Source of the DNA: Ignavibacteria bacterium
Lineage (GTDB): Bacteria > Bacteroidota > Ignavibacteria > Ignavibacteriales > Melioribacteraceae
Length of the DNA: 51,115 nucleotides
Assembly (NCBI GenBank): GCA_009773205.1
Contig: WPAE01000012.1
Coordinates: 1-51,115 of the forward strand
Direction: 5' to 3'
Shown: one piece after another, positions 1-15,347 of the stretch
Layout of the letters: the number at the start of each line of letters is the position of its first letter
How positions within the stretch are numbered: the first letter of the stretch is position 1
Notes under the pieces: model-generated
Seen by the model: only the letters and a program-made list of their open reading frames with translations
Database searches by the model: none
Told to the model about the DNA's origin: nothing
Position numbers and translations under genes: made by a program

Positions 1-98
1 CTTGTCGGGGTTAACCCCGAAAGTAAAATGTTTAGAAATAACATTTTACTTTCGGCCTTCGGCAAAAAATTCAGTTTCTAATGAATTTTTTGGGTTAA
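1..98. repeat. Tandem palindromic repeat elements at the left window edge
   Basis: Bases 1-14 (CTTGTCGGGGTTAA) match the right end of the repeat at 11645-11777. A second element follows, sharing the TTAA at 11-14 and running to GGGTTAA at 92-98. It contains three inverted repeats: CGGGGTTAACCCCG (6-19, perfect), 16-bp perfect arms at 17-32 and 40-55 around a 7-nt loop, and 10-bp arms at 64-73 and 82-91. Its right end (GGCAAA...CTAATG...TTTGGGTTAA) resembles the reverse complement of the left end of the 11645 copy. These are direct sequence observations. That they form one non-autonomous, TTAA-bounded element family is inference. Confidence 0.7.
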
Positions 99-1042
99 TA
101 ATATATGGCGTTGATTTCTTCAGCTACGAAAGGGAATTGTACTTCTACAGCTTTATTGCAGTTATTGGAACACTCTTAACCCCATTATGGTTTTTTCAAG
201 GTACGGAGAGAATGATTGTAATTACAGGCGTAACTTTTTTAGTTAGGCTAATATTGGCTGCTTCAATATTTGTTTTAGTTACAGAAAGCAGTGATTACAA
301 ATTTTATGCGCTACTAAACAGTATAAGTACTTTTTCTATTGGAATAATATCATTTCTCTTTTTAAGCAAAAAAATTACACTTCCTAATAAAGCCAATGCA
401 GCCGTACTTTTGCATGAATTGAAAGAAGGAAGCATTTTATTTGTTTCTAACTTGGCAATTAATTTGTACACTGTATCGAATACATTCATTTTAGGATTAT
501 TCGCACCGCCGATTATTGTTGGGTATTGGTCAGCCGCAGATAAAATGAGAATGGCAGTGCAAAATATGTTAATGCCGTTTACACAAGGAATGTATCCTCA
601 TTTATCAAAACTATTTAACGAATCTATTGAAATTGCAATGAGGTTTATCAAGAAGTTGTTTTCTGTAATCTTACTGCTAAGTTTAACTCTTTCTATTATG
701 TTGTTCTTTTTTGCCGAACCAATAGTAAGCATTATTCTTGGCGATGATTATTTAAGCTCGGGTTACATTCTGAAAATAATTTCTTTCTTGCCATTTATAA
801 TTACTCTGAGCAACATTGCTGGAATACAAATATTACTGAATATTAGAGGCAGCAAAGAGTTTACATTCACTGTGTTAATTGCAGCGGGATTCAACATAGT
901 GTTTTCGCTAACAGTTGTTCCTAAAATGCTGGCAATTGGCACTGCGGTATCAGTGCTAATTACCGAAGTGATTGTAACTATGCTTATGTTTTACTTTGCT
1001 CATAGAAAACTGAAAAAGATTGGCGGTACAAGTGAAATATGA
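2..1042 (+). CDS. Polysaccharide flippase (Wzx-like), N-terminus missing
   Basis: This is a very hydrophobic membrane protein of the MATE/Wzx (polysaccharide biosynthesis protein) type, expected to flip undecaprenyl-linked sugar repeat units across the inner membrane. Recognisable family features are the stretch around LTPLWFFQGTERM and the following series of transmembrane segments to the C-terminus. The open frame is 346 aa, whereas family members usually have about 420-480. Its first roughly 30 codons are repeat DNA (1-98), and family-like sequence starts only around LIIYGVDFF, near the end of what would be transmembrane segment 3. The gene is therefore either interrupted by the repeat or joined to it at a contig edge, and the true start is not in the window. 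It overlaps the next gene, suggesting one operon with the glycosyltransferases downstream. Confidence 0.75.
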   Translation: MSGLTPKVKCLEITFYFRPSAKNSVSNEFFGLIIYGVDFFSYERELYFYSFIAVIGTLLTPLWFFQGTERMIVITGVTFLVRLILAASIFVLVTESSDYKFYALLNSISTFSIGIISFLFLSKKITLPNKANAAVLLHELKEGSILFVSNLAINLYTVSNTFILGLFAPPIIVGYWSAADKMRMAVQNMLMPFTQGMYPHLSKLFNESIEIAMRFIKKLFSVILLLSLTLSIMLFFFAEPIVSIILGDDYLSSGYILKIISFLPFIITLSNIAGIQILLNIRGSKEFTFTVLIAAGFNIVFSLTVVPKMLAIGTAVSVLITEVIVTMLMFYFAHRKLKKIGGTSEI

Positions 1043-3071
1043 TTACCTAATAGTAGGCGCCGGTTTTGCCGGTGCAGTTATGGCAGAGAGAATTGCAAGT
1101 CAATTAAACAAAAAAGTTTTAATTGTTGAAAAAAGAAATCACATTGGCGGCAATGCTTATGATGAATATGACGAGCATGGGATCTTGTTGCATAAATATG
1201 GACCGCATATATTTCATACAAACAGTAAAGAAGTGTTCGATTATTTATCTCAATTTACTGAGTGGCGTTTTTATGAACATAAAGTATTAGCAAAACTTGA
1301 GAATGAATTATACCCAATTCCAATAAACCGAACTACAGTAAACAAACTATACGGATTAAACCTCAAAACGGATGAAGAAACACAAAAGTATTTTGATTCT
1401 GTGAAGGAGAAAAGATTTCCAATAAGTAATTCAGAAGACATTATTGTAAATCAGATTGGCTATGATTTGTTTGAAAAGTTCTTTAAACATTATACAATCA
1501 AGCAGTGGAATTTGGAACCAAAAGAACTATCGCCGGCGGTTTGTGGAAGAATTCCAGTGAGAACAAATGATGACTGCCGATACTTTTCAGATAAGTATCA
1601 GCTTATGCCGAAAGACGGCTATACTAAAATGTTTGAAAAGATGTTAAGTAACTCTAATATTGAAGTATTACTAAATACAGATTATAAGAGTATAGGCAAT
1701 AATATCAAATTTGATAAAATGATTTATACCGGTCCGATTGATTATTTTTTTGATTACAAGTATGGAAAACTTCCGTACCGTTCGATACGGTTTGAGTGGG
1801 AAACGCATGAAACTGAGATATATCAAGAGGTGGCTCAAATTAACCACCTGAATTTTGAAGTTTCGTTTACAAGAGTAGTAGAACATAAAACTCTCAGTGG
1901 CATAGAAAATAAGTTCACAACAATTTCCAAAGAGTATTCTCTTACAGAAGGTGAGCATTATTATCCTATTCTCACAGAAGATAACCGCAAATTGTTTCTC
2001 AAATATCAGATTGAAAGTGAGAAAAATAGCAAAGTAGTTTTTTGCGGGAGATTAGCCGAATACCAGTATTATAATATGGATCAAGTGGTTGTTAACACAT
2101 TGAATAAGTTCAGAGATGAAATTGCGAACATACAAGTAGATAGTTTTAAAGTAGCTGCTGTTGTTGTAACTTATAATAGGCAAGCCTTATTAAGTGAATG
2201 TATAAACGCTTTAAGAAATCAAACCAGAAGACTTGATGAGATTTTCGTAATAAACAACTCAAGTAGCGATGGAACTGAAGAATGGCTAAATGCTCAGGCA
2301 GACTTAACTGTAATTACACAGCCAAACACGGGAAGTGCTGGCGGACAGCACACGGGTATAAAGAGTGCGTATGAAAAGGGATATGATTGGGTATGGTGTA
2401 TGGATGATGATGTGGTAGTATATGACATTTGTTTAGAAGTTCTACTCAATTTTATTAGAACTAAAAGAGAAACAAAAATTGCGGCTATACAATCTTTGAA
2501 AATTGTGAACGAAATAGAAACTTGGCATGGAGCAGAGTTTGTAAATGTTGATAAAATGAGAATTATACGGGTTGCAGATAGAGCTGTTAAAGAAGGATTT
2601 GTTGAAACAAACTCTTTTTGCTTTGAAGGAATTTTGATTGCTCGAGAAATTGTTCAAAAAATTGGATTGCCTAACATTAGTTTTTTTATAAACAACGATG
2701 ATTTAGAATATGCATTAAGAATCAAATCTCAACTTAAAGACCATAGTATAATACTTCTAGGTAATGTTTTGATGAGAAGGAAACGTAAGACCAAAAGCGA
2801 GCTAAAGAAATATGATTGTCTTTCAAAATGTAAACAGGTAAGTGATTGGGATATTTTTATGATGGAGAAATACTTTAAAAATTTTTTTATTGCTGTTAAA
2901 CTCAATTATCCCTCAAAATTCTCTTACCTAAATGCCTTTCGCTTCCTTTTTTCTCATTATCGCTGGATTTTCAAAGTAGTGTTAGCAATCTTGTTTTTTA
3001 GAACAAATAGATATCAACGATTAACAAATTTATTTAGGCAGATAGTTTCTCAGGGTGTTTTTGCAGGTTGA
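1020..3071 (+). CDS. glf: UDP-galactopyranose mutase fused to a GT2 galactofuranosyltransferase-like domain
   Basis: Residues 1 to about 375 are a UDP-galactopyranose mutase, which converts UDP-galactopyranose to UDP-galactofuranose using reduced FAD. The FAD-binding GAGFAGAVMAERIA is near the N-terminus, with KYGPHIFHT and the KQWNLEPKEL region typical of Glf. From about residue 378 (KVAAVVVTYNRQ) a family-2 glycosyltransferase begins, with NTGSAGGQHTG, the metal-binding MDDDV (Asp462-464) and NNDDLEYALR (Asp560-561), resembling galactofuranosyltransferases. One unbroken frame covers both, so donor synthesis and transfer are probably coupled in one cytoplasmic or membrane-associated polypeptide. 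The start is uncertain: TTG at 1020, or GTG at 1032, which has GGCGG just upstream. Residue numbers are from the TTG. It overlaps the flippase gene. Confidence 0.9.
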   Translation: MAVQVKYDYLIVGAGFAGAVMAERIASQLNKKVLIVEKRNHIGGNAYDEYDEHGILLHKYGPHIFHTNSKEVFDYLSQFTEWRFYEHKVLAKLENELYPIPINRTTVNKLYGLNLKTDEETQKYFDSVKEKRFPISNSEDIIVNQIGYDLFEKFFKHYTIKQWNLEPKELSPAVCGRIPVRTNDDCRYFSDKYQLMPKDGYTKMFEKMLSNSNIEVLLNTDYKSIGNNIKFDKMIYTGPIDYFFDYKYGKLPYRSIRFEWETHETEIYQEVAQINHLNFEVSFTRVVEHKTLSGIENKFTTISKEYSLTEGEHYYPILTEDNRKLFLKYQIESEKNSKVVFCGRLAEYQYYNMDQVVVNTLNKFRDEIANIQVDSFKVAAVVVTYNRQALLSECINALRNQTRRLDEIFVINNSSSDGTEEWLNAQADLTVITQPNTGSAGGQHTGIKSAYEKGYDWVWCMDDDVVVYDICLEVLLNFIRTKRETKIAAIQSLKIVNEIETWHGAEFVNVDKMRIIRVADRAVKEGFVETNSFCFEGILIAREIVQKIGLPNISFFINNDDLEYALRIKSQLKDHSIILLGNVLMRRKRKTKSELKKYDCLSKCKQVSDWDIFMMEKYFKNFFIAVKLNYPSKFSYLNAFRFLFSHYRWIFKVVLAILFFRTNRYQRLTNLFRQIVSQGVFAG

Positions 3072-3078
3072 TTAAAAT

Positions 3079-4164
3079 ATGCAGATACTAAGAACAGTCA
3101 TTTTTCACATAATGAATTTCATTTACTGCTTCGCAAGTTTCCGAGAGAATAAAAATCAAATTAGTAATGTTCACTCTCTTGTGATTTACTTAAAAGGTGG
3201 AATTGGAGATTTTTTTATGCTTCTTCCTACAGTTGAAGCTATCAAACAAAACTCTAAAATTAAGGTACACCTTTTTATACCAAGTGAAATTAAAATAATT
3301 GCAGAAAAGTATTCATATTTTGAAAGCATTGTAGGAACTAAAACTAGTAAAAACAAATTGAGCGAAAGGATTAAATCGGTTTTTATAGAACACAAAGCTT
3401 TTAGTGAAATAAAATACCAATTACTATTTGTGCCTCCAGTCGGATCGAATCTGGTGCTCTGTTTTTTAGGATTATTTATTAGGAAGAAAATCTTTGTTGG
3501 GTTTTCGAATTCAGACTGCTCCAACTTTTTTAACTACTTGATGAAATTTTCCGATCAACCAATTATTGTTCAAAATTCCCAATTGTTAATATTGCTTGGT
3601 ATTCAATCATTAATTAAAATACCAGATTTGCCATTTCTTAGCTCCGACTGCAAAACTTATCCTGAAGCAAGTCGCAAAAAATTAAAAGAACAAGAAAAAG
3701 TGATTATCGCACTTTATTTGTTTACCTATCAAAATGGAAATAGCAAGGCAGCATTTAACATAAAAGGATATTCTGATTTAATAAAAGAGCTTAATAGTTA
3801 CAGCAATAATTATCTATTTATACTTCTTGGCGGCGAAAAGGATGCGGCTGCTTGCGAAGATGTGATAAAAGAATTAAATGAAAAAGTTAGCATAAATAAA
3901 TTAGCAGAACATTCATCTATTTTCCAAAACGCATCATTAGTAAGTAAATCTAAGGCAATTATTGGTATTGATGGTGGCTTTATGCATGTAATTCAATGGA
4001 TTGATGTAAAAAAAATCACTCTTTGGAATGGAACGAATTTCTTACATTATGGATATGAGTCAGAGAATAATTTAAACATTCATGTTGAAAAATATAGATT
4101 CCACAATTATGATTATAATATCGGTGCTATTGGTAAAGAAATCTATGAGTTTATTTGTAAATGA
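3079..4164 (+). CDS. Glycosyltransferase family 9 (heptosyltransferase-like)
   Basis: The 361-aa protein begins its catalytic fold with LKGGIGDFFMLLPTVEAIKQ, the usual N-terminal motif of heptosyltransferase-like GT9 enzymes. It ends with the GT9 nucleotide-sugar half, where IIGIDGGFMHVIQWIDVKKI matches the family pattern for the donor-binding loop. GT9 enzymes add heptose or related sugars in lipopolysaccharide core or glycan synthesis at the cytoplasmic face of the inner membrane. The gene starts 7 nt after the Glf fusion and belongs to the same + strand glycan cluster. The exact sugar cannot be read from the sequence. The first 30 residues are less typical, so the true start could be slightly internal. 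Confidence 0.82.
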   Translation: MQILRTVIFHIMNFIYCFASFRENKNQISNVHSLVIYLKGGIGDFFMLLPTVEAIKQNSKIKVHLFIPSEIKIIAEKYSYFESIVGTKTSKNKLSERIKSVFIEHKAFSEIKYQLLFVPPVGSNLVLCFLGLFIRKKIFVGFSNSDCSNFFNYLMKFSDQPIIVQNSQLLILLGIQSLIKIPDLPFLSSDCKTYPEASRKKLKEQEKVIIALYLFTYQNGNSKAAFNIKGYSDLIKELNSYSNNYLFILLGGEKDAAACEDVIKELNEKVSINKLAEHSSIFQNASLVSKSKAIIGIDGGFMHVIQWIDVKKITLWNGTNFLHYGYESENNLNIHVEKYRFHNYDYNIGAIGKEIYEFICK

Positions 4165-4281
4165 AAATAACATTCCCTTTAATGGACTGTTATTGTGTTT
4201 TTATTGGAACATAGCCTATTACTTATCAAACACGTATTGGGATTGAGTGATACTACAATTAAAACTATAGAGCTTGTTAGA

Positions 4282-5352
4282 ATGAAGAACTTGCTGTTTA
4301 TTACTACCGATTTTAATTATTCTTCTGGCGTTACAAGGCATGTAATAAACCTGCTAAACGATACCGGCAGATGGAACGGTTATAATTTATTTTTTATGAG
4401 CAATGGCGGCGATGCCATAAATGAAATAAAAAAGACAAATGTCAAAACAGTTTTTGAAATTCATTATGGAAAAGGCAACATAAAGTACACTTATTTCATA
4501 CATAACTACATAAAAATTTTAAGTGTGATATTGGATTACAAGATAGATATAGTTCATACACACCATAGATATCCAGAACTACTCGCATCCTTAATCCCTT
4601 TTAGAAAGTTTAAGTTAATTTCAACTGTGCATAGCAAAGTACAGAAGTGGAATTATCTCAGCTTCCGCTCGGATTTATTAATTTCTGTTAGTCATGCAGT
4701 TAAAAATCACATTATTCAAAAATATTCAACAACTCCATCGAAAGTTGTAGTTGTGTACAACTATTTATCTTGCTATAAAAATGAAGCAGAAAAAATTAAG
4801 AAAAATGATCTGCTGAAACCTGAATCAAAAAGTGAAATGAAGAAAGTACTATTTGTCGGCAGATTGTGTTATACAAAAGGTGTAGATATTCTTATAAAAG
4901 CTGTAAATGAATTAAAAAATAGGATGCTGCTTGATTTAGTTTTAGTTGGTAAAATAGAGGAGGAATTCGAGAGTGAGCTTGATAATTTAGATGTAAGCAT
5001 AACCAAAATATTTGAACCGGTTGCAGACATTTCTAAATATTATTTAACTACTGATATTGTAGTATTACCGGCCAGAGAAGATCCGTTTCCTTATGTAATG
5101 TTGGAAGCCGGTTTGTTTATGAAACCATTTATTGGAAGCAATGTTGATGGTATAGCAGAGTTTATTGATGACGGAGTAAACGGATTATTATTTAATAAGG
5201 ATGATCATCTTGATCTGGCTGATAAGATAGAATTCTTATTCGCTAATAGACCATTAGCCCAAAAAATGAGCTTAGAGTTGTTTAATAAAGTTGAAAATGT
5301 ATGCTGCAAAAAAACTTATCTTGAAATACTGAAACAATTTTATGAAAAGTAA
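4282..5352 (+). CDS. Glycosyltransferase family 4
   Basis: A GT-B fold glycosyltransferase. The N-terminal half starts MKNLLFITTDFNYSSGVTRHV, and the C-terminal donor domain has KKVLFVGRLCYTKGVDILIKAV, VVLPAREDPFPYVMLEAGLFMKPFIGSNVDGIAEFI and GLLF, the normal GT4 signature with the conserved E-x7-E-like motif. It should transfer a sugar from a nucleotide donor onto a lipid-linked glycan. I chose the ATG at 4282 because family homology begins there; the frame is open to a GTG at 4195, adding 29 residues without family character. The last 11 bases overlap the GT26 gene, supporting translational coupling in the glycan operon. Confidence 0.87.
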   Translation: MKNLLFITTDFNYSSGVTRHVINLLNDTGRWNGYNLFFMSNGGDAINEIKKTNVKTVFEIHYGKGNIKYTYFIHNYIKILSVILDYKIDIVHTHHRYPELLASLIPFRKFKLISTVHSKVQKWNYLSFRSDLLISVSHAVKNHIIQKYSTTPSKVVVVYNYLSCYKNEAEKIKKNDLLKPESKSEMKKVLFVGRLCYTKGVDILIKAVNELKNRMLLDLVLVGKIEEEFESELDNLDVSITKIFEPVADISKYYLTTDIVVLPAREDPFPYVMLEAGLFMKPFIGSNVDGIAEFIDDGVNGLLFNKDDHLDLADKIEFLFANRPLAQKMSLELFNKVENVCCKKTYLEILKQFYEK

Positions 5353-6103
5353 GAATAACAATTATATCAAACTGCTATACGAGCTTGTAGAAAAGTTAAT
5401 CAAAAACCAAGATGAAGTATTCTTAAGAATAGTTGAAGCTGTAGAATCCCAAAACAATTTACTCCTTACTTATTTTAACCAGAACTCGTTCATTGTTGCA
5501 AAAAGTAGCAATGCTTTTAGAAGACTTCTTACAGAGAAATTTCATCTATTTTCAGATGGTATCGGGATTTATATCCTTCAAAAGATTATGAATAAAAAAT
5601 GTGAACTATTTAACGCTACTGATTTGTATGATAGCGTCTTCAACTGGTTAATTAAATCAAATAGAAAAATTGTAATTATCGGAGGCGATTTCTCAGAAGC
5701 TGCAGTTACTAAATATTGTGCACATAAAAAGGTCAATCTTTATAAATATTTTAATGGTTATAAAGATTTAGAGAATTTCTATCAGATAAAAAAAACGATC
5801 AACTCTCTTGATTACGCGATTGTAATAATTGGAATCGGGACACCAAAGCAAGAAATTTTAGCTGAGCAAATTAGTATAGAGACAGAAAAGAGTTGCGTTC
5901 TTTGTACAGGTAAGTATTTTGAATATTTTACTGGCAGTATAAGACGATCTCCTAAAATATTTAGAAAATTTGGTCTTGAATGGTTTTTCAGACTTATATC
6001 AAATCCCCAGAAGTATTTCGGAAGGTATGTTGTAGGAATACCAAAATTCTTATTCTATTTAACAATAATGAAGGTTTATCTTGGCAGAGAGAAGAGTCCT
6101 TAG
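5342..6103 (+). CDS. WecG/TagA/CpsF family glycosyltransferase (GT26)
   Basis: The 253-aa protein has the family landmarks in order: FSDGIGIYIL (normally a D-G-x-G motif), IVIIGG, IVIIGIGTPKQEILAEQ with the conserved G-x-P-K-Q-E, and the C-terminal RRSPKIFRKFGLEWFFRL followed by a basic RY segment. WecG and TagA members add a ManNAc-type sugar to an undecaprenyl-diphosphate-linked GlcNAc during enterobacterial common antigen or teichoic acid synthesis. Here the likely role is an early step of the local glycan. It overlaps the GT4 gene upstream and, by 23 nt in another frame, the C25 peptidase gene downstream. The extra N-terminal 50 residues are variable in this family. Confidence 0.88.
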   Translation: MKSKNNNYIKLLYELVEKLIKNQDEVFLRIVEAVESQNNLLLTYFNQNSFIVAKSSNAFRRLLTEKFHLFSDGIGIYILQKIMNKKCELFNATDLYDSVFNWLIKSNRKIVIIGGDFSEAAVTKYCAHKKVNLYKYFNGYKDLENFYQIKKTINSLDYAIVIIGIGTPKQEILAEQISIETEKSCVLCTGKYFEYFTGSIRRSPKIFRKFGLEWFFRLISNPQKYFGRYVVGIPKFLFYLTIMKVYLGREKSP

Positions 6104-9100
6104 AATAGGTCTACTTTTATTTATTAAAATTGTTTTAGTATCTTATTTGTTGGCAGGCACTCATTCTACTGTGAAACAAAAAAATGAATCTGGTTTTCAA
6201 ATCAAATTATCATTTGAAAATGTGAAGTATGAAATAGAGAAGGGCGAACAATCCAGAATTATTTTCCCGGATGCTATGGACGAGAGCCAACCCGGCTCAT
6301 TAATTTTGCCTCATAAAATCATTTACATTGCGCTTCCACCAAACGATGAAAGTGAAATCACTTTTATTAATAAAACATCTCAACTAATCAATTCTGTAAT
6401 ACCAGAGATTAACCCACAGTGGGAAATTATAAACGATTCAACAATACATTACAAAGAAGCTCAGCTATCTATTCCAACTCTTCAAGCGTCAAGTTCGCTT
6501 CCCGATTTTACAGTAATGGGTTATACGTGGATAAGAAATTTCTATGTTGCAGTTGTTAAAATTAATATAGCAAAGTTTTCCCTTGAGGAAAACACTGTAG
6601 AACTTTTTAACTCTATTGAACTAAAGGTAACATATAAGAACAAACATACTACACAACACAATACTGTAGTTAACGGAGATTTTGATAATTCGTTAAATGA
6701 TTTGATATGTAATTATGATAATGCGAAGGAATTCTTCGGCTCAAACAAAATCCATAATTCTGATGAGAGCCAATGGATTGATTTCGGCAAGGACTATGTT
6801 AAGCTATCAATCCACAAAGATGGAATTTATAGAATTTTGTATAACGATTTAGTTTCGTATGGTATAGATCCAAGCATTATTCATCCAACTACTTTTAAGT
6901 TATTTGTTAGAGGGAAGCAATTACCACTTTACATTTCTGGTGAAGAAGATGGAGTTTTTAATAAAGAGGATTTCATAGAATTTTATTGTCGTAAGAATTA
7001 TGAATTAGATGATTATAAAAGAATTGTAAATACTGGACAACAGTATGTAAACTATCTCAATAAGTATGTAGATTCAACTTATGCCTGGCTTACATGGAAC
7101 GGGGAACAAGGACAAAGAACTAAAAATAGAAATTCATCAGAAAAAGCCGGGCTTAACTCCCTTAGTACACACAGAGCTAAGATTCATCTGGAAAGCGATG
7201 AAAGACTATGGTATTACTCTGGAAGCGAACCAAGATATCAGCTCCCGATTTGGTCGGAAAATAAAGTCTATACATGGTTGTTTTTTGGTTCGCCTGGAAG
7301 TATTTCTGCAAAATTTAATGCAGAAAATATTGTCCAAAATTCAAGTGTTAATTTTACTAGCCGATTGCTGAGTAATGCATCTAATGTTAGCAAAGACGCT
7401 CACAAAGTGGGCTTTGCATTGAACTCTTCAACTGCATCGGATACAATCAAATTTGATTTTAAGTCCATAATAAATTTTAATGTAGTTTCAAGTTCTAATT
7501 TACTGAAAGAAGGCTCCAACCAAATAAATATTTATGGTTATCAAACTTTCGCTAGTATTAATCAAGTATTGTTAGATTGGATTGATGTAACTTATTCCCA
7601 ACACAATGTAATTAAAAACGACACTCTCCATCTTCGTTTTGATGATTTATCCAAAGCAGATGTTTATAATATTATTATTAAAAATGTTGAGGATGTAGAA
7701 AATATCCAAATCTACCGCTTGACCCCCACTTACGAAAAAATAATTGGCTTTAGCAAAGATGCAAAACAAAAACATGTTGTTTTTAGCGATACTGTTAAAA
7801 TAAATTCTTCATATTATATCAGCGGAATAAAAAAGATTCGAAAGGCGAAGTTTATCTATAAAAAGCGATTTTCTGATCTGTTGAATAACGCTAATGGCGC
7901 AGACTATATTTTGATATCGAATCTAGCCTTTTCAAATTCTACTCAAGACTATGAAAAATTTATAAAGTCGAATTATTCTATTAGAACTTACACAGCATAC
8001 ATTAATGAGGTTTACGATCAATTTACTTTTGGATATCCTGAGCCAGAAGCAATAAAGAAATTTTTGATAGGCTGCTTCTCAAAGTGGAAAGCACCATTAC
8101 CATCTTACTTAATTTTGCTTGGCGATGCAAATTACGATTACAAAACTTTATGGAAACCACTTCCGGCAAAAGTAAAGACAAACTTTGTTCCTACTTATGG
8201 GCAGCCGGCTAGCGATAATTGGTTTTGTACATTTGACTCTGTATCTGTTTCGTTGCCGCAAATGTTTGTTGGAAGATTACCTGTACAAAATGATGATCAA
8301 CTGAATGCCTATTTAAACAGGCATAAAAATTATTTGAATAGAAAACCTAATATTCTAAATAAAAAGTTTATTCTTTTTAGTGGAGGCGACCCTAAAAACC
8401 CAAACGAGCTAAGTACATTAAAAACAGCAAATGATCTTCTTCAGACCAAAATTACAGATGATTCAATTAGTGGTATTGCGAAGCATTTTTTTAAAACTAC
8501 TAATCCACTTACTAACTTTGGCCCAATCAGCCATACAGATTATCAAGCCACAATTGATTCTGGTGCTTTGGCTATCTCTTACTCTGGGCACAGCGGAACA
8601 AGAACTTGGGATAATGGCATTAATGAAGTGAAAAATCTAAAAAACTTGGGAAGTATCTATCCATTAATATCTGATTTTGGATGTTCTACAGGAAGATTTG
8701 CTGAACCTGATGTTGATTCCTTTGGTGAGCTTTTTGTTTCACAATCTGTTGATGGACAAGCAATTGGATACTTGGGTAACTCTAACTTAGGATTTCTTTC
8801 GACTGCCGCAAAATTTCCTTCCTACTTTTTTAGTGAATTGTTTAATCGCGAACATAGTTCTTTGGGGTCGGTTCATTTTAGAGCAAAAGTAAAACAAATG
8901 GTTGAAGGAGGATATTCTGAGGTTACAAGAGCATTCAACTATTGCAATCTTTTATTTGCCGACCCAATAATAAAAATAGCAATTCCAACAAAACCAAACT
9001 TAACTATAACCCAAAATGATATTAGATTATTGTCCAATACAACAATTACCGATATTATGGATTCTGTGAAAGTTCGATTTAAAGTAACAAATCTGGGGCG

Positions 9101-11480
9101 AGGAACTCCAAACAAATTCAATATCCTTGTAACTCAAGAATTAAACGGAAAGAAAATATTCTTCAAAGAAATTATGGCGAGAAACGCATTCCTGTTTTCT
9201 TATTATGAGTGTAATATCCCTATAAAAAATAATTCGGGAAATAATTTAATTAAAATCGAATTAGATAAAGATAATTCGATTGATGAGTTGTTTGAAGATG
9301 ATAATAATGTTGAGTATAGTTTTTATGTTGCAAGCGACAAAACGAAAACTCTTTTAACGGATAAATACTTTTTGAGAGGAAATTTTTCTACAATAAAATT
9401 GTTAAATCCTCATTCTAAAACTAATTATGAAACGCCGGAAATAACTTTATCATTTGCAGGCAAAGAGAGTTTTCAAGACCATTCTATATTTACAAAAAAA
9501 AGTGAAATTGTAACTACTTCATTTATATTGCCAGAATTGCTCTTGGGTAAGCGATATTGGTTTAGGACTATGTTGAGAGGGACAGTTAATGAATGGTCAG
9601 AAACTTACTCTTTCATTTATGATAACAACTCCCCAAGGTGGAGCCTCCATCCATCCGCAAAATCGAGTAATGCAGGATTGACAAATGTCATTTGCGACAG
9701 TATTGCTAATGGCTGGATTCTTAGCAATGCTCTCAGCAAACTTGTTATTACATCAGCGGGATCAAGCGACGGGAAATATGCTTCCATTACATTGAATAAT
9801 ACAGAAAAGCTGACTAATACTTTTTTCTGGGGAATTGCTGCGGCTATTCTTGATACAGTTACTTTAATCCCAGCCGATATCAGATATTTTACCTTTCCGG
9901 CTTCACAGTCATCAATAACACTTACAAAATATATTAATGAATTGCCTAAAGGAACTACTATAATTATGGTTGTTTGCGATGATGCCGCTCAATCAGTTCT
10001 GGGTTTCGATTTCAATTCCGATATCCGTAAACTAATTGAAACTTCATTCGGTAGTATTTATTCAAGAAAAGTTGGCTACCGCGAATCTTGGTGTATGATT
10101 AGTAAAAAAGGAGCCACTTATGGTACAGCATTAGAAACTTATAAAAAACAGTTTGAAGGATTAGCAATAATTGATAAAACAAAAAGTGTGCAATTAAAAG
10201 AGGGTTATATTTTAACACCTTTATTAACCAACGTAAGTAAATGGAAAGAAATTGGAATTGAAGCCACAATACCTGTAGGTGCGCTAATAGAAGTAAATCC
10301 AATTAGTATTAATAAAGATGGAAAGATGGACACGTTGAAAACGAAGCCTCTGTTAAACAAGAAAGCAAAACTTGATGATATTGATGAGAAGTTACATCCA
10401 AATATGCAATTCTTAATAAGAATGAAAGCAAACGAAACTTTAGTATCTCCGCTTCTAAAAACAATTGATATAGACTTTACAGGCGTCCCAGAACTTGCCA
10501 CAAACTATCAAGTCGTATCTATTTCTAAAGACTCTCTCGATCAAGGCGAAAAAGTAAATCTTAACTTTGCTGTGTATAATGTTGGTGAATCAACTGCCGC
10601 TAACTTCAAAGTTAGAGTTGATTTGGTAAAGAAAGATAATTCTAAAGAAAAACTCTTTGAGCAAGTTGTTGATTCGATTCAAACGGAAAATAAAAAAGAC
10701 TTTAGACTTGCATACACAACGGATAAAATTACCGGTAGTAATCAATTTCAAATAAGTATTGATCCCGAGAACAAGGTTACAGAATTATATAAGGACAATA
10801 ATTTTTATTCTGTTCCATTTTATGTAAAACCAAATAACAAGCCGGCTTCAATTAAATTAACTATTGATGGAACTGATATTCTTAACGGTGATTTTATTTC
10901 ATCAAAACCAAATTTTAAGATTGAACTTAATGACGAATCTCTTATACCAATAACTGATACTTCCAAAGTTTTGCTTTACCTGAACAACAAGAGAATTTTC
11001 TTTGCGGACAATTTAAGTACTCTCAGTTACAGCTTTTCGTCTAACAACCCAAAGATGGCAGTAAATTACAACCCAACACTTGCAGATGGAAATTACACTT
11101 TCAAAGTAGTTGGCAAAAATGCAACTGACCAAATAATAGATTCTACAGGAATTGTAAGAAAGTTTACTGTTAAAAATCAGCTTCACTTGTTGAATGCTTA
11201 TAATTATCCAAATCCATTTAAGGGAGAGACCTATTTCACTTTCAAAATCACTCAGCTTCCGGATGAATTAAAGATTTTAATTTACACAATTGCCGGAAGG
11301 AAGATTAAAGAAATAAAGCTGAGTTCATCTGATTTAAGATATGACTTTAACAGAATTTATTGGGATGGTAGAGATAATGATGGAGATATTCTTGGTAACG
11401 GAGTTTACATTTACAAAATAATTTCTAAAAAAGGGAATGAAAAAACAGAACTAACTCAAAAGCTCTCTATTTTAAGATAG
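6081..11480 (+). CDS. C25 (gingipain/PorU-like) peptidase with CARDB-like and T9SS-like C-terminal domains
   Basis: This 1799-aa exported protein has an N-terminal hydrophobic signal (VLRIGLLLFIKIVLVSYLLAG), a beta-rich prodomain-like region, and a C25 caspase-fold peptidase from about residue 600 to 960. His837 in SYSGHSG and Cys868 in SDFGCSTGRF form the likely catalytic pair, with spacing close to that of gingipains. Two CARDB-like domains follow (starting PNLTITQNDIRL and ELATNYQVVSIS). The end, starting NAYNYPNPFKGETYF and containing WDGRDNDGD, resembles a T9SS sorting/FlgD-like domain. PorU sortases cleave T9SS cargo signals and attach lipopolysaccharide; at 1799 aa this is longer than P. 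gingivalis PorU, and a secreted gingipain-like protease is the alternative. Start is TTG 6081, overlapping the GT26 gene. Confidence 0.82.
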   Translation: MAERRVLRIGLLLFIKIVLVSYLLAGTHSTVKQKNESGFQIKLSFENVKYEIEKGEQSRIIFPDAMDESQPGSLILPHKIIYIALPPNDESEITFINKTSQLINSVIPEINPQWEIINDSTIHYKEAQLSIPTLQASSSLPDFTVMGYTWIRNFYVAVVKINIAKFSLEENTVELFNSIELKVTYKNKHTTQHNTVVNGDFDNSLNDLICNYDNAKEFFGSNKIHNSDESQWIDFGKDYVKLSIHKDGIYRILYNDLVSYGIDPSIIHPTTFKLFVRGKQLPLYISGEEDGVFNKEDFIEFYCRKNYELDDYKRIVNTGQQYVNYLNKYVDSTYAWLTWNGEQGQRTKNRNSSEKAGLNSLSTHRAKIHLESDERLWYYSGSEPRYQLPIWSENKVYTWLFFGSPGSISAKFNAENIVQNSSVNFTSRLLSNASNVSKDAHKVGFALNSSTASDTIKFDFKSIINFNVVSSSNLLKEGSNQINIYGYQTFASINQVLLDWIDVTYSQHNVIKNDTLHLRFDDLSKADVYNIIIKNVEDVENIQIYRLTPTYEKIIGFSKDAKQKHVVFSDTVKINSSYYISGIKKIRKAKFIYKKRFSDLLNNANGADYILISNLAFSNSTQDYEKFIKSNYSIRTYTAYINEVYDQFTFGYPEPEAIKKFLIGCFSKWKAPLPSYLILLGDANYDYKTLWKPLPAKVKTNFVPTYGQPASDNWFCTFDSVSVSLPQMFVGRLPVQNDDQLNAYLNRHKNYLNRKPNILNKKFILFSGGDPKNPNELSTLKTANDLLQTKITDDSISGIAKHFFKTTNPLTNFGPISHTDYQATIDSGALAISYSGHSGTRTWDNGINEVKNLKNLGSIYPLISDFGCSTGRFAEPDVDSFGELFVSQSVDGQAIGYLGNSNLGFLSTAAKFPSYFFSELFNREHSSLGSVHFRAKVKQMVEGGYSEVTRAFNYCNLLFADPIIKIAIPTKPNLTITQNDIRLLSNTTITDIMDSVKVRFKVTNLGRGTPNKFNILVTQELNGKKIFFKEIMARNAFLFSYYECNIPIKNNSGNNLIKIELDKDNSIDELFEDDNNVEYSFYVASDKTKTLLTDKYFLRGNFSTIKLLNPHSKTNYETPEITLSFAGKESFQDHSIFTKKSEIVTTSFILPELLLGKRYWFRTMLRGTVNEWSETYSFIYDNNSPRWSLHPSAKSSNAGLTNVICDSIANGWILSNALSKLVITSAGSSDGKYASITLNNTEKLTNTFFWGIAAAILDTVTLIPADIRYFTFPASQSSITLTKYINELPKGTTIIMVVCDDAAQSVLGFDFNSDIRKLIETSFGSIYSRKVGYRESWCMISKKGATYGTALETYKKQFEGLAIIDKTKSVQLKEGYILTPLLTNVSKWKEIGIEATIPVGALIEVNPISINKDGKMDTLKTKPLLNKKAKLDDIDEKLHPNMQFLIRMKANETLVSPLLKTIDIDFTGVPELATNYQVVSISKDSLDQGEKVNLNFAVYNVGESTAANFKVRVDLVKKDNSKEKLFEQVVDSIQTENKKDFRLAYTTDKITGSNQFQISIDPENKVTELYKDNNFYSVPFYVKPNNKPASIKLTIDGTDILNGDFISSKPNFKIELNDESLIPITDTSKVLLYLNNKRIFFADNLSTLSYSFSSNNPKMAVNYNPTLADGNYTFKVVGKNATDQIIDSTGIVRKFTVKNQLHLLNAYNYPNPFKGETYFTFKITQLPDELKILIYTIAGRKIKEIKLSSSDLRYDFNRIYWDGRDNDGDILGNGVYIYKIISKKGNEKTELTQKLSILR

Positions 11481-11894: not shown

Positions 11895-14800
11895 TTGAAT
11901 AAGAACTCTTTAGCAACAATAATACTTTTTCATTTTCTGTTTAATGCTTTTCTTTTTTCGCAGACAAGAGAAGTAAGTGATACATTAAGAATCAATCTCA
12001 AGAATTACTACAAAATTTCCGAGTTAAACATCATTCCATTTTCTGAAAAAGTTTTATTACGTAATAGAACTCTTAACAGAAGCGAATACGAGGCAGATTA
12101 CTCATCCGGAACGTTTAAGATTTTACAACACGTAACTTATTCTTTGCTCGATACGTTAATTATTACATACAAATCTGTTAAAATCAATCTTAAGCAGGAG
12201 TATAAACACCGAAATCTGGAAATCCATTTGGATGAAAAAACGCTTGATACTCTTCGCATTGCAAAACCAAGCAGAAATATCTTAAACACGGAATCTATTT
12301 TTGGGAAAGATTTGCAGAGGAGCGGCGCGCTTGTAAGAGGATTTACAATAGGCACGAACAGAGATTTTACATTAAACAGCGGGTTAAGATTACAATTGAC
12401 CGGGAGGCTTTCCGATGATATTGATATTGTAGCTGCGCTTTCCGATGAGAACACGCCAATTCAACCTGAAGGGAACACTGAGACTTTGGAAGAGTTGGAC
12501 AAAGTATTTATAGAACTTAAGCATAGAAATGCTGTAGGTACTTTTGGCGATTATGAATTTAATGTACGCAATTCGGAGTTTGCACAGATAACAAGAAAAC
12601 TGCAAGGATTACAAGGAGAAATATTATTTGAGAATACAAAGGGAAAAATCGCGGTAGCTGGCTCACGAGGGAAATACAATTCAAACTTGCTTCAAGGGCA
12701 AGACGGAAATCAAGGTCCGTACAGATTAACCGGCGCAAATAACGAAAGAGCAATCTTTGTTATTGCCGGAAGTGAAAAGGTTTTTGTTGATGGTGCTGCA
12801 ATGAAACGCGGTGAAAACAATGATTATGTAATTGATTACTCAAACGCAGAAGTTACTTTTACTGCAAAAAAGTTAATCACATCTGCAAGTAGAATTACGA
12901 TAGAGTTTGAATACACAGATCAAAAATTTAAGAGAAACTTTTTTGGTGCAGACTTTAAGACAATGCTTATGAGTAACAAATTGAAAGTGGGCGTCAGTTA
13001 TTTTCAAGAAGGAGATGATGAAAACAGCCCTATAGATTTTTCTTACACAGATGAGCAGCTGGAAATTCTGAAGCACGCCGGAAACGATAGAAATAAAGCA
13101 ATTGTAAGCGGTGTTACAGTTGCTGGTTTGGATTCACTTGGAAAAACTCAAGGCATTTACTTAAAAGCTGATACAACTATTTACGGCAAAAATTTTTCGT
13201 ACTATAGATATTTCCCAAAGAACACGCAAGCAATTTACAATGTAACTTTTAGCTTTGTAGGAGAGGGAAACGGAGACTATTCAAAAGAAAGTTTAGGTAG
13301 ATATAAATTTGCTGGAATTAAATCCGGTTCGTATCTACCTATTATTTACATACCAATGCCAGAACAAAAACGTCTCGGAAATCTTTCACTTGATTACAAC
13401 TTGAGTAAAGGAGTTTCGCTCAATGCAGAACTTTCTGCAAGCTCGTGGGATCAAAACAAAATTTCGGATTTTCATGATGCTAAGAATTTTGGATATGCAA
13501 GAAAACTTAATTTCAATTTTGAAACTCAGGAAGTTTCATTGGCGGGTGTTTCGCTTGGCAAAATTGGTTTAAGCTACAAGGACAGATTTATCGAATCAAG
13601 ATATTCTTCACTTGATAGAATTGATGATGTTGAGTTCAACAGAAATTACAACATTAGCTCAAGCGGCGGAGATCAAACTCTAAGAGAAATTCGATTGCAA
13701 CTTGAGCCAACACAAAATCTTAATCTTACTTCTAAATACGGATATTTGAAACAAGGCGAATCATTTCAATCAGATCGTTTACTAAATCATCTTAAATTTT
13801 CAATCCCAAAAACTTTAACAGCCAATTACACTTTCGATTATGTTGCTGCGAACAATAAGTTGACTGAATCGAAGTGGGTTAGGCAAAACAGTAATGTAAA
13901 TATTTTGTTTGGGGAATTCAGCGCCGGATTAGATTTCCTAAATGAAGACAAAAAAGAAAAACTAGCCGGATTGGATTCGCTCTCGGCAACAAGTTTGCGT
14001 TATTTAGAATTTTCTCCGTTCGTTCAATATACCAGCTCTGCAAGTTTTGATGTAAAAGCTAATGTTGGCTACAGAGAAGAATCCTTTCCGTTAAAAGGAA
14101 AGTTAGAAAAACAATCCAGCGCATTTACTCAGCAATACCAAGTTAACTACCGCGGAACTAAAGAGTTTACTACAAGTATTAATCTTACATTAAGAAATAA
14201 AACTTACACAGAAGTATTTAAAAATCTTGGCTACGGCAACAACGAAACAATTCTATTACTTTCTCAAAGCAGAATTAATTTGTTCAACAATTTCTTAAAT
14301 GGAGAGTTGTACTACCAAGCTGCAACTGAACAATCAGCTCGAATGGAAAAAGTTTTTGTTAAAGTTCCGGTTGGCACCGGCAATTACATCTATCTTGGCG
14401 ATAGAAACAATAATGGAATTCCAGAAGAAAGTGAGTTTCAACTTTCTCTATATGAAGCAGATTTTGTTTTGGTAACAATTCCTACAGATAAACTGTTTCC
14501 AGTTATTGACCTCAAAACAAATATTAGATGGAAGCTGGATTTTAGCCGCTTAGTTGAAGGCGATGGAATGTTTCATAAAATTGTTAAGGCATTTTCAACA
14601 GAAACTTTTTGGAGAGTTGAAGAAAACTCTAAAGACAAGGAAACAAAAAATATTTATCTGCTCAACTTTTCTAAGTTCTTGAATGAAACAAACACGCTAC
14701 GCGGAACAAACTATTTTCAGAAAGATGTAAACATACTTCAAAACAATAAAGAGCTATCTTTTCGGCTTAGATATAATCAGCGCAAGTCACTTAATCAATA

Positions 14801-15347
14801 TTCCGGTGGAGTTGAAAGAGGCTATTTGCGCGAGCGTTCTTTAAGAATTCGTTTTAAGATGGTTGAAGAAATTAATAATCAGACCGATTTTATTAACCAA
14901 ACTGATAACATGATTTCTCCGGTTTCTACAAGCAGAGCAAGAGAAATTAATAAAAACAGTTTTGTCTCAGATTTTAGTTACAGACCAATAAGAGAAATGG
15001 AAGTTGGATTTAAGTTTGAAGCTGCGCGGAGTTTGGATCAATACCCGGCAAAGCCATCAACTGTTGATATGAATTCATTTGTGCTTCGTTCAACTTATTC
15101 TTTCGAAAATAGTGGAAGGCTTAGAGTTGAAGTTGAGCGAACAGAATTGACTTCATCTTCTGTGGAATACAACATTCCTTTTGAAGTTCTGCGTGGAAAT
15201 GTGATAGGTAAAAATTATTTTTGGAGAGCGTTTTTTGATTTTCGTGTATCAAGCTTGCTACAAACTTCTGTTAGTTACGATGCAAGAAAGCTCGGAGGCA
15301 GCCGAATTATTCACACAATGCGCGCTGAAGCTAAAGCGTATTTTTAA
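11895..15347 (+). CDS. Large predicted outer-membrane/surface protein, function unknown
   Basis: A 1150-aa protein with an N-terminal signal peptide (LATIILFHFLFNAFLFSQ) and then almost entirely beta-strand-like sequence with alternating hydrophobic residues, ending in an aromatic residue (KAYF), as outer-membrane barrels do. A notable module is the SEKVFVDGAAMKRG...NDYVIDYSNAEVTFT region followed by ITIEFEYTDQKFKRNFFGADF, which resembles segments of the T9SS translocon protein SprA, though this protein is half SprA's length. I would not call it SprA. It follows the PorU-like gene after a 414-nt gap, so a surface or secretion-related role is plausible but unproven. The start is uncertain: TTG at 11895 gives a good signal peptide but no good ribosome binding site. 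Confidence 0.75.
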   Translation: MNKNSLATIILFHFLFNAFLFSQTREVSDTLRINLKNYYKISELNIIPFSEKVLLRNRTLNRSEYEADYSSGTFKILQHVTYSLLDTLIITYKSVKINLKQEYKHRNLEIHLDEKTLDTLRIAKPSRNILNTESIFGKDLQRSGALVRGFTIGTNRDFTLNSGLRLQLTGRLSDDIDIVAALSDENTPIQPEGNTETLEELDKVFIELKHRNAVGTFGDYEFNVRNSEFAQITRKLQGLQGEILFENTKGKIAVAGSRGKYNSNLLQGQDGNQGPYRLTGANNERAIFVIAGSEKVFVDGAAMKRGENNDYVIDYSNAEVTFTAKKLITSASRITIEFEYTDQKFKRNFFGADFKTMLMSNKLKVGVSYFQEGDDENSPIDFSYTDEQLEILKHAGNDRNKAIVSGVTVAGLDSLGKTQGIYLKADTTIYGKNFSYYRYFPKNTQAIYNVTFSFVGEGNGDYSKESLGRYKFAGIKSGSYLPIIYIPMPEQKRLGNLSLDYNLSKGVSLNAELSASSWDQNKISDFHDAKNFGYARKLNFNFETQEVSLAGVSLGKIGLSYKDRFIESRYSSLDRIDDVEFNRNYNISSSGGDQTLREIRLQLEPTQNLNLTSKYGYLKQGESFQSDRLLNHLKFSIPKTLTANYTFDYVAANNKLTESKWVRQNSNVNILFGEFSAGLDFLNEDKKEKLAGLDSLSATSLRYLEFSPFVQYTSSASFDVKANVGYREESFPLKGKLEKQSSAFTQQYQVNYRGTKEFTTSINLTLRNKTYTEVFKNLGYGNNETILLLSQSRINLFNNFLNGELYYQAATEQSARMEKVFVKVPVGTGNYIYLGDRNNNGIPEESEFQLSLYEADFVLVTIPTDKLFPVIDLKTNIRWKLDFSRLVEGDGMFHKIVKAFSTETFWRVEENSKDKETKNIYLLNFSKFLNETNTLRGTNYFQKDVNILQNNKELSFRLRYNQRKSLNQYSGGVERGYLRERSLRIRFKMVEEINNQTDFINQTDNMISPVSTSRAREINKNSFVSDFSYRPIREMEVGFKFEAARSLDQYPAKPSTVDMNSFVLRSTYSFENSGRLRVEVERTELTSSSVEYNIPFEVLRGNVIGKNYFWRAFFDFRVSSLLQTSVSYDARKLGGSRIIHTMRAEAKAYF

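Follow-up and report, generated by a model that had tools for sequence, protein, structure and literature searches.

To our knowledge, the anchor of T9SS cargo has been worked out in detail for a few oral pathogens only. In the closest described system, that of Porphyromonas gingivalis, the parts of the studies consulted report that the sortase PorU conjugates cargo to A-LPS (PMC7468200; PMC4560394), that PorZ binds A-LPS and then PorU (PMC8545088), and that an arginine following the catalytic cysteine of PorU has been put forward as a sortase-like feature (PMC4560394). Besides PorU, NCBIfam contains a 'putative T9SS sortase PorU2' (NF052324), a label of which we found no mention in the literature searched. 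Here we describe a C25 peptidase gene adjoining glycan genes in a contig of 51,115 nucleotides from an Ignavibacteria bacterium (WPAE01000012.1), the whole of which is referred to as the window. With its genetic link to glycan genes and a domain that is likely to bind glycans, this sortase-like enzyme bears on how the match between sortase and glycan is maintained as surface glycans vary, and makes the questions of anchor and matching testable.

A C25 peptidase gene in a glycan operon

The operon comprises the following genes, with coordinates given from the first possible start codon of each reading frame:

2..1042, forward strand: Wzx-type flippase (Polysacc_synt; PF01943, 74.5 bits), 5' end cut by the contig start
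1020..3071, forward strand: in-frame fusion of UDP-galactopyranose mutase (Glf; TIGR00031, 378.8 bits) and GT2 (PF00535, 79.8 bits)
3079..4164, forward strand: GT9, heptosyltransferase-like (PF01075, 31.9 bits, cut-off 22)
4195..5352, forward strand: GT4 glycosyltransferase (PF00534, 93.5 bits, cut-off 26.4)
5342..6103, forward strand: GT26, WecG/TagA/CpsF family (PF03808, 102.2 bits, cut-off 27.4; TIGR00696, 72.6 bits, cut-off 69)
6081..11480, forward strand: C25 peptidase of 1799 aa, PorU2-like (NF052324, 399.3 bits; NF033707, 268.0 bits)

Reading frames and profile scores confirm the head-to-tail order from flippase to GT26 and the overlap of the latter with the C25 gene, as described in a first-pass annotation of this DNA; the operon span of 1020 to 11,480 proposed there keeps its order but not its left edge, since the flippase already begins upstream of 1020. 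According to the ORF calls, the flippase and Glf-GT2 genes overlap by 23 nt, gaps of 7 and 30 nt separate Glf-GT2 from GT9 and GT9 from GT4, and overlaps of 11 and 23 nt connect GT4 to GT26 and GT26 to the C25 gene, which starts with TTG at 6081, 6 nt downstream of a GAAGG (6070-6074) located inside the GT26 gene. Glf scores above the cut-off for UDP-galactopyranose mutases (303.75) and GT26 above that of TIGR00696, while the fused GT2 is, with 82.5 bits, far under the cut-off of 330 of the GlfT1 equivalog NF050113, so that galactofuranose transfer by this domain can be called plausible. Judged by gene length in the gene maps, Glf and GT2 are separate genes in nearly all relatives shown, with L171 as another long Glf. 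As in a Wzx/Wzy-type locus, flippase and glycosyltransferases share one cluster. The contig start truncates the cassette, and among its genes contained in the window no polymerase, initiating transferase, aminotransferase or aminoacyl-transfer gene was recognised.

Architecture and relationships of the C25 protein

The following features, all on the forward strand, were located in the C25 protein:

7905..8975, forward strand: C25 catalytic domain (PF01364, 178.9 bits, cut-off 23), RgpB-like fold
8589-8591, forward strand: catalytic His837, invariant in the alignment
8682-8684, forward strand: catalytic Cys868, invariant in the alignment
9729..10190, forward strand: FAM3/ILEI domain, aa 1217-1370 (PF15711, 52.6 bits, cut-off 27, residues 1251-1345), fold closest to the POMGnT1 stem domain
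10515..10811, forward strand: CARDB domain, aa 1479-1577 (PF07705, 40.1 bits; Z 16.0 over 110 residues to 3idu)
11205..11444, forward strand: T9SS type A sorting domain, aa 1709-1788 (TIGR04183, 24.7 bits, cut-off 23)

His837 and Cys868, already noted in the first-pass annotation, are invariant across 29 aligned sequences including that of the window, and the dyad is kept in 96/96 catalytic domains of the PorU2-like C25 group containing the window protein, here labelled class C, and in 42/42 PorU. The T9SS-like C-terminal domain also noticed at that stage is substantiated by its profile score and by a fold match; the FAM3/ILEI and CARDB domains are additions to the earlier description. In fold comparisons, the catalytic domain superimposes on RgpB with Z 35.1 (rmsd 2.5 over 323 residues), the protein on PorU (6za2) over 591 residues with Z 24.6 (rmsd 6.2, Foldseek E 2e-37) and the FAM3/ILEI domain on 5ggf with Z 18.2 (rmsd 2.7 over 142 residues). 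The last 215 residues show Z 13.7 to the C-terminus of PorU, but with an rmsd of 13.3 over 195 residues, and Z 10.9 to that of PorZ (rmsd 2.4 over 86 residues). The predicted protein is of PorU build, with N-terminal beta domain, gingipain-type His/Cys catalytic domain and T9SS C-terminal domain, to which a domain resembling the POMGnT1 stem is added. This FAM3-like domain is found in all 92 class C proteins of sufficient length, in 0/17 secreted C25 proteins and in 0/45 PorU; among PorU2 rows from the phylum at large, its occurrence is patchy and the matches are weak (13/32). In a set of 46 PorU rows, neither the FAM3-like nor the CARDB domain was found. At the position of the arginine of PorU, about 32 residues past the catalytic cysteine, R is present in 42/42 PorU and in 0/96 class C domains, which instead hold S (90), A (5) or N (1).

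The protein had initially been described as PorU-like and as the sortase of the operon; taken as the PorU of its organism, this label is wrong, because a separate canonical PorU is encoded on contig C61 (997.2 bits with the PorU model NF033707, cut-off 420) next to a PorV gene (268.4 bits, cut-off 250). With the same PorU model, the window protein stays below the cut-off, and eight PorU controls, including that of its own genome, score between 934 and 1418 bits. In the C25 tree, it is located outside the PorU clade (11 rows, support 100/99) and equally outside the clade of secreted C25 proteins (14 rows, 98/91), contrary to the possibility, considered at the outset, that it would cluster with ordinary secreted or gingipain-like proteases. 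It is instead part of class C, which forms a clade of its own (21 rows, 99/97) on the PorU2 side of the tree (54 rows, 98/95), whose internal branching is weak (88/71). Its best NCBIfam match is the PorU2 model, which aligns to residues 225-1075 (371.4 bits in the genome search) with a score under the cut-off of 450, as is the case for two other class C proteins (421.3 and 393.8 bits). In loci of this model's own clade, PorV2 is found directly upstream in 13/23 cases; we use this arrangement as a hallmark of PorU2 that is our own and derived from these loci, and the window lacks it, with no PorV2 (NF052325)-like match near class C genes in the class C loci examined. That the protein would be the canonical PorU, in line with its PF01364 and TIGR04183 matches and its PorU fold, is virtually ruled out by the porU-porV pair on C61, the low PorU score, the tree and the missing arginine.

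Linkage and probable exchange of the cassette

The conservation of the locus was followed in a class C sample of 100 distinct genes, 76 of which have at least 3 kb of upstream sequence. The synteny with glycan genes expected from the window is found widely, with a GT26 gene at a distance of up to about 3 kb on either side in 67/76 loci and in the same cluster in 71/76. GT26 is located upstream in 66 loci and on the same strand in 54 of them; in 37 of these 54, the two genes are no more than 100 nt apart, and in 16 of the 37 they overlap. It is the best-conserved partner of the class C gene; a flippase is present in 46/60 and any GT4, GT2 or GT9 in 57/60 loci with at least 9 kb upstream, as detected by our own profiles. 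Across 58 genomes, including that of the window, 40 contain both class C and GT26, one class C only, one GT26 only and 16 neither, which corresponds to agreement in 56/58 (Fisher p 3.5e-12, uncorrected for kinship). Both exceptions are at contig ends: in G045, class C is found without GT26, and in G026, which has GT26 without class C, the contig ends inside a C25 gene (fragment E 7e-44). GT26 lies within 7.5 kb of class C in 39/41 GT26 genomes and within 20 kb of PorU in 0/40. The pairing is thus kept across the order as well as in further families within the taxonomic class Ignavibacteria and, together with the placement of the protein outside the secreted C25 clade, strongly supports the coupling of a sortase-like C25 enzyme to a glycan operon. 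Outside class C, a glycan enzyme adjoins the C25 gene in 10/14 further PorU2-side loci, one of these enzymes being under its cut-off and one detected by our own profile only. A further C25 class, of about 1900 aa, is found in another glycan locus.

In 29/56 loci with both flanks, the cassette is bordered by M23 on the left and OMP450 or HAD on the right. This site is empty in five genomes without class C, where OMP450 comes immediately after M23, and in the window's own genome M23 is directly followed by HAD at that site, the cassette being located elsewhere and still containing the C25 gene. Between G000 and G001, which belong to the same genus, distances are 0.27 for PorU, 1.04 for C25 and 2.41 for GT26, and same-genus members fall into different class C branches of the C25 tree, suggesting that the cassette is exchanged within the genus while PorU is not. 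Distances of C25 and GT26 are correlated given PorU (r 0.35, 0/2000 permutations). Those of C25 also track PorU (r 0.28, 1/2000) and flippase and Glf track C25 weakly given PorU (0.21 and 0.07), so the cassette does not strictly behave as a single unit. By linkage, co-occurrence, empty sites and distances pointing to joint exchange, the peptidase gene belongs to the cassette.

Proposed function and comparison with known systems

We tentatively read the window as a glycan-assembly cassette whose last gene could well encode, in addition to PorU, a sortase-like T9SS enzyme of PorU2 type that is dedicated to the glycan. Its place in the cassette and the apparent joint inheritance suggest that the C25 enzyme and the variable surface-glycan genes of Ignavibacteria form a matched 'glue and anchor' pair, with the cassette glycan as putative protein anchor. 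The cassette would make a lipid-linked surface glycan with optional galactofuranose, variable outer sugars and a constant GT26 step. The C25 enzyme would reach the surface via its own T9SS signal, hold the glycan with its FAM3-like domain, which might take over the job that PorZ has for PorU in Porphyromonas, remove the C-terminal signal from some of the T9SS cargo, leaving a thioester on Cys868, and pass the new cargo C-terminus to an amine on the glycan. We propose that C25 and glycan genes travel together because strain-variable glycan genes would demand a matching sortase. We count against this reading that the arginine of PorU is replaced, mostly by serine, that aminotransferase and aminoacyl-transfer genes are not seen among the cassette genes of the window, that no PorV2 partner was found near class C genes, that a full PorU is present, that the cassette does not strictly behave as one, that the FAM3-like domain is patchy on the PorU2 side of the phylum and its fold familiar to us as sugar-binding from animal proteins only, and that relatives without class C have T9SS cargo numbers (72 in G021, 126 in G038, 87 in G014) similar to the 87 sorting-domain matches of the window's genome. 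WecG, the founder of the GT26 family, uses a uronic N-acetylhexosamine donor. In a more speculative version, which we consider rather doubtful, GT26 and the C25 enzyme would form a two-gene attachment core, the linking sugar being added by GT26 and dedicated T9SS cargo being tied to it by the C25 enzyme, whose built-in glycan binder would stand in for PorZ. Varying outer glycan genes would then turn the cassette into a 'serotype plus matching sortase' module that is complete in itself and swapped horizontally, and glycan-locus C25 sortases would be a phylum-wide kind beside PorU.

Among the alternatives, the C25 protein might be a surface protease and itself a T9SS cargo, attached by PorU to the cassette glycan and co-inherited as displayed antigen or effector. 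Its own sorting domain, the absent arginine, the presence of a canonical PorU and the higher Z of its catalytic domain against gingipains than of the whole chain against PorU (35.1 and 24.6) are in line with such a role, yet PorU has the same kind of C-terminal domain (46/46 rows), the architecture is that of whole PorU, the protein is found outside the secreted clade and the close pairing with GT26 has no obvious reason for an ordinary displayed protease. We regard this explanation as unlikely, though deserving serious attention. Less probable still is a role in trimming or maturing surface proteins, for example of glycan export or capsule, for glycan assembly or exposure, without a covalent protein-glycan bond. 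The retained dyad combined with the missing arginine would suit it, as would the fact that in several lineages PorU2-side genes have O-antigen ligase, Wzx or GT genes as neighbours; however, apart from glycan enzymes, no conserved protein that could serve as target was noticed among the cassette genes, and these enzymes should reside in the cytoplasm or inner membrane, whereas the signal of the C25 protein indicates transport across the outer membrane. Finally, the frequent location at one chromosomal position, where genes are exchanged together, and the weak tracking by flippase and Glf could reflect a passenger hitch-hiking at an exchange hot spot for glycan genes. This reading is already disfavoured and appears very improbable, as the gene is included in the displaced cassette of the window's genome, is lacking in genomes without GT26, save one contig-end case, and recurs in other lineages.

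The cassette offers a genetic handle in the search for new protein-glycan linkages, and the NCBI label 'PorU2' could denote a family of glycan-locus sortases. A protein-sorting system going with polysaccharide genes has a likeness in PEP-CTERM/EpsH (exosortase) sorting, which is reportedly associated with exopolysaccharide genes; its enzyme is unrelated to C25 and acts on another signal without T9SS. The stem of POMGnT1 binds GlcNAc, and we know of sugar binding by the FAM3 fold in animal proteins only. Residues 1217-1370 share this fold (5ggf, 5ggj, 5lc2; Z 18.2 and 16.5), for which sugar binding has been shown in animal proteins in the part of the study consulted (PMC9802357), and the bacterial domain is a candidate glycan binder. 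The closest NCBI family, PorU2, is located on the same side of the tree, but the window protein and two other class C proteins score under its cut-off and class C is found in a GT26 glycan cassette, where the PorU2 clade often has PorV2 upstream. With PorU of P. gingivalis (NF033707; 6za2), the window protein has in common the N-terminal beta domain, the C25 His/Cys domain and the T9SS C-terminal domain, and it differs by its own clade, the lack of the conserved arginine, the FAM3-like and CARDB domains and a location within a glycan cassette rather than next to porV, in a genome that encodes PorU too. The logic that it may share with the PorU-PorZ-A-LPS system, as far as described in the parts of the sources consulted, is that of a surface cysteine enzyme, a glycan acceptor and a separate glycan-binding element (PMC8545088; PMC7468200; PMC13086638). 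Whereas PorZ is a separate glycan-binding protein in P. gingivalis, the possible glycan-binding domain is here inside the enzyme, which is encoded together with the glycan genes in one cluster.

The cassette and the identity of its C25 peptidase

The cassette of the window comprises six reading frames, which are organized as described in the first-pass annotation and whose families are confirmed by profile matches above the respective cut-offs:

2-1042, flippase
1020-3071, Glf-GT2 fusion (Glf and GT2 both matched)
3079-4164, GT9
4195-5352, GT4
5342-6103, GT26
6081-11480, C25 peptidase

The Glf-GT2 fusion constitutes a single frame of 683 residues, with both parts mostly found as separate neighbours among the relatives shown. 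The peptidase gene starts within the GT26 gene, with a TTG codon that is preceded by GAAGG at a distance of 6 nucleotides, and 414 bases separate its end from the next open reading frame of at least 120 residues. Since promoter and terminator predictions were no commoner than in shuffled sequences (61 vs 57.0, sd 7.6, and 4 vs 5.3, sd 2.2, respectively), they lend no support to the ends of the operon. Behind the cassette, region 11895-15347 encodes a protein of 1150 residues without match in Pfam or NCBIfam, and the same contig harbors an LptD-family protein (LPS export, 43435-46065), along with an alpha-amylase (46198-47916) that carries a T9SS sorting domain.

C25 genes were found in all 58 genomes searched, the one of the window and 57 relatives, with the window's genome containing two. 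Its other C25 protein, of 1319 residues on contig C61, scores 997.2 bits with the model of the T9SS sortase PorU (NF033707, cut-off 420) and is followed by a gene scoring 268.4 bits with the PorV model (cut-off 250), whereas the window protein reaches 268.0 bits with NF033707 and 399.3 bits with the PorU2 model (NF052324, cut-off 450). A maximum-likelihood tree was computed from 87 catalytic domains, with a midpoint root that serves for drawing only. In this tree, the window protein resides within a clade termed class C (21 rows, support 99/97), on the side holding the NCBI-type PorU2 proteins and distinct from both the PorU clade (11 rows, 100/99) and the clade of secreted C25 proteases (14 rows, 98/91). 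Eight of the 11 PorU rows (all except L003, L004 and L221) were tested with NF033707 and exceeded its cut-off, as did none of the three secreted rows tested with the same model (L205, L211 and L215). The phylogeny suggested by the first-pass annotation thus places the window protein away from gingipain-like secreted C25 proteases and also outside the PorU clade. Its position rules out an ordinary secreted protease and, together with the model scores, the absence of PorU's conserved Arg and the separate PorU-PorV pair on C61, also the earlier assignment as the organism's own PorU.

Linkage of C25 peptidases to glycan genes

The pairing of peptidase and glycan genes, which the first-pass annotation had described as a glycan operon coupled to a PorU-like peptidase, is kept across Ignavibacteria. 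By Pfam, 41 of 58 genomes contain GT26. A class C gene is found no more than 5 kb away in 37 of these and no more than 7.5 kb away in 39 (counting G026 with a gene fragment), and in none of 40 genomes does GT26 come closer than 20 kb to PorU; the 20-kb flanks of canonical PorU were read in three genomes (L044, L185 and L186). Of the 58 genomes, 40 carry class C together with GT26 and 16 carry neither (Fisher p 3.5e-12, kinship ignored); the two discordant cases both involve loci at contig edges. One of them, G026, has a fragment of a class C gene spanning 241 codons (E 7e-44) next to GT26.

Upstream sequence of 3 kb or more is available for 76 of the 100 distinct class C genes. In these 76 loci, where GT26 and other genes were named by profiles made from the window's genes, GT26 is found within about 3 kb in 67 and as part of the cluster in 71. 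A glycan gene of some kind is recognised in 75, the sole exception being L075:9992-15322. Where GT26 lies upstream, it shares the strand of the peptidase in 54 cases and is reversed in 12. The same-strand genes are separated from the peptidase by at most 100 nucleotides in 37 of 54 cases and overlap it in 16 of those 37, which are upper estimates as the first possible start codons were used. Excluded from the linkage count were L040, which lacks a class C gene, the fragments L093 and L108, and L167 and L173, whose catalytic score is below 400. Named records overlap with the other genomes; copies with the same catalytic sequence were counted once in linkage and domain counts, while the 46-row PorU domain counts include such duplicates. 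For the scan of named genomes with alignment A1, the best 80 of 132 loci were used; the same scan with the single C25 protein as query found no relative. Among the carriers of the class C gene is a cultured bacterium, Stygiobacter electus 09-Me (L067), and it is also present in genomes labelled Melioribacter roseus, which are MAGs.

The recurrence in loci of relatives rules out a local chance pairing, and the coupling of C25 to glycan genes obtained by this computation is real and strongly conserved. Exceptions include L028 and L033, from two genomes of the same genus (G044 and G051), where class C is accompanied by a flippase and GT26 resides on another contig; this split or reduced cassette could separate the roles of GT26 and C25. 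In L051 and L102, glycan genes are present and GT26 was not seen in the locus. Other variations concern the peptidase itself. In a pair of related genomes, a single GT26 is followed by two tandem class C-like genes (L165:4769-15653 and L167:4777-15653), class C is enlarged to about 2400 residues in L062:9887-17269, L120:169-7365 and L124:9866-17047, and the gene of G013 (L039:10348 onward) is divided into three frames of 1155, 227 and 324 residues, reflecting either a decayed gene or an assembly error.

NF052324 scores above its cut-off in 27 of 296 genomes of the phylum. At loci of this type, a PorV2-like gene is located directly upstream in 13 of 23 cases (NF052325 itself was tested in two). 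At other PorU2-side loci, from outside the class Ignavibacteria, a glycan enzyme is the direct neighbour in 10 of 14 (L153-L157, L159-L161, L163 and L164, and not in L150, L151, L152 and L158), the enzymes being GT4, GT2, Wzx, Wzy (in L153 under its cut-off), O-antigen ligase and Polysacc_synt_2 epimerase. A second glycan locus (L175-L184, 10 loci) contains C25 peptidases of about 1900 residues, termed class B, which group with PorU and secreted C25 in the tree, with examples at:

L178:10332-16088, class B C25
L180:4098-9833, class B C25

Across these loci we find GT4, a PglC-like transferase, DegT, O-antigen ligase or Wzi. A gene of 610-613 residues directly follows the peptidase in all ten, with a GlmS-like N-terminus in the two that were read (L178 and L180).

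Chromosomal site and apparent exchange of the cassette

In 29 of the 56 loci with both flanks, the cassette is located between an M23 peptidase gene and a pair of OMP450 (our label for a gene without Pfam family) and HAD, a count in which the left marker may be hidden where the cassette is longer. Among 16 sites, five are empty, with OMP450 directly following M23 (G014, G021, G036, G038 and G046, all without class C). In the window's own genome, HAD directly follows M23 on contig C459 (L201, an empty site without OMP450), and the cassette resides on C222. L189 and L197 contain other neighbours instead of the cassette, L199 and L202 are from genomes with class C elsewhere, and the sequences of L192, L193, L194, L196 and L200 do not extend far enough to judge. 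In L198, from a genome scored as having neither gene (G016), a flippase at the contig end may indicate an unseen cassette.

The computation also reveals signs of exchange. Between the window's genome and G001 of the same genus, distances are 0.27 for PorU, 1.04 for class C and 2.41 (near saturation) for GT26, compared to 0.15, 0.17 and 0.46 in the close pair G004-G005. Distances of C25 and GT26 correlate after allowing for PorU (r 0.35, 0 of 2000 permutations), and C25 retains some PorU signal (r 0.28, 1 of 2000), while it is followed less by flippase (0.21) and Glf (0.07). From these distances, the peptidase therefore appears to have been exchanged together with GT26, with other glycan genes apparently shuffled more freely.

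Architecture and putative function

The architecture emerging from computation combines a PorU-like fold with additional domains. In the predicted structure of residues 222-1080 (mean pLDDT 89.3), the fold resembles PorU (6za2; Z 24.6, rmsd 6.2, 591 residues), with the catalytic part being closest to RgpB (Z 35.1 over 323 residues). The prediction of residues 1078-1799 (pLDDT 88.7) contains a domain (1217-1370) that is closest to the stem of POMGnT1 (Z 18.2 over 142 residues), with FAM3C ranking next (16.5). It further includes a CARDB domain (Z 16.0), and its end matches the PorU C-terminus (Z 13.7, though with an rmsd of 13.3 over 195 residues). In a single-sequence search of solved structures, no match was obtained for the N-terminal half and the FAM3-like stretch was detected at E 0.011 to 0.074; clear matches need the alignment or predicted models. 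GlcNAc is bound by the POMGnT1 stem, FAM3C and FAM3A (PMC9802357).

The FAM3-like domain is present in all 92 class C proteins that are long enough (99 distinct), in all 9 proteins from other families within the class Ignavibacteria, in 6 of 6 of the outside group X37, in 2 of 2 of B2 and in 13 of 32 PorU2 proteins of the wider phylum, some with domain E of 0.002 to 0.003. It was found in none of 10 class B, 45 PorU and 17 secreted C25 proteins. Of the 29 rows listed, 26 retain the Arg of its 'FR.SW' motif; any correspondence of this residue to a sugar contact of POMGnT1 is a guess. The His/Cys dyad is intact in all 96 class C domains, which all lack the conserved Arg of PorU. No other result speaks as strongly against a PorU-like transfer step as this absence, which could point to hydrolysis or to an active site of another kind; the role of this Arg in PorU is itself only proposed (PMC4560394).

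WecB (PF02350) is found in 53 of 58 genomes, 48 above cut-off. A ManNAc-type donor is possible, and since WecB does not track the presence of class C, it has no specific support. Glf is an optional component, found in 27 of 58 genomes and 30 of 60 loci. The 16 PorV/PorQ-family matches in the window's genome exceed what we expected for one T9SS and do not permit the assignment of a PorV partner to the window protein. Counts of T9SS cargo do not distinguish carriers of class C from non-carriers (four counts of at least 150).

PorU of P. gingivalis is considered to remove the signal of cargo proteins and to join their C-terminus to A-LPS (PMC7468200, PMC4560394), PorZ binds A-LPS and meets PorU (PMC8545088), and cargo is attached to O-polysaccharide via a pentasaccharide, for which glycosyltransferases were proposed (PMC13086638). 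By analogy, the window protein would be a second, glycan-dedicated PorU-type enzyme with a built-in possible glycan binder. We infer a transpeptidation with its cargo, acceptor and glycan identity, where GT26 would make the acceptor; a sortase function is plausible, with the balance tilting slightly towards doubt. In the open-licence PMC literature searched, we found neither a description of the coupling nor the term 'PorU2', and no PorU paralog is mentioned in the available text of PMC12618676. Compared to the PorU system of P. gingivalis, the anatomy of the window fits a second version that is dedicated to a glycan and carries its own possible glycan-binding domain.
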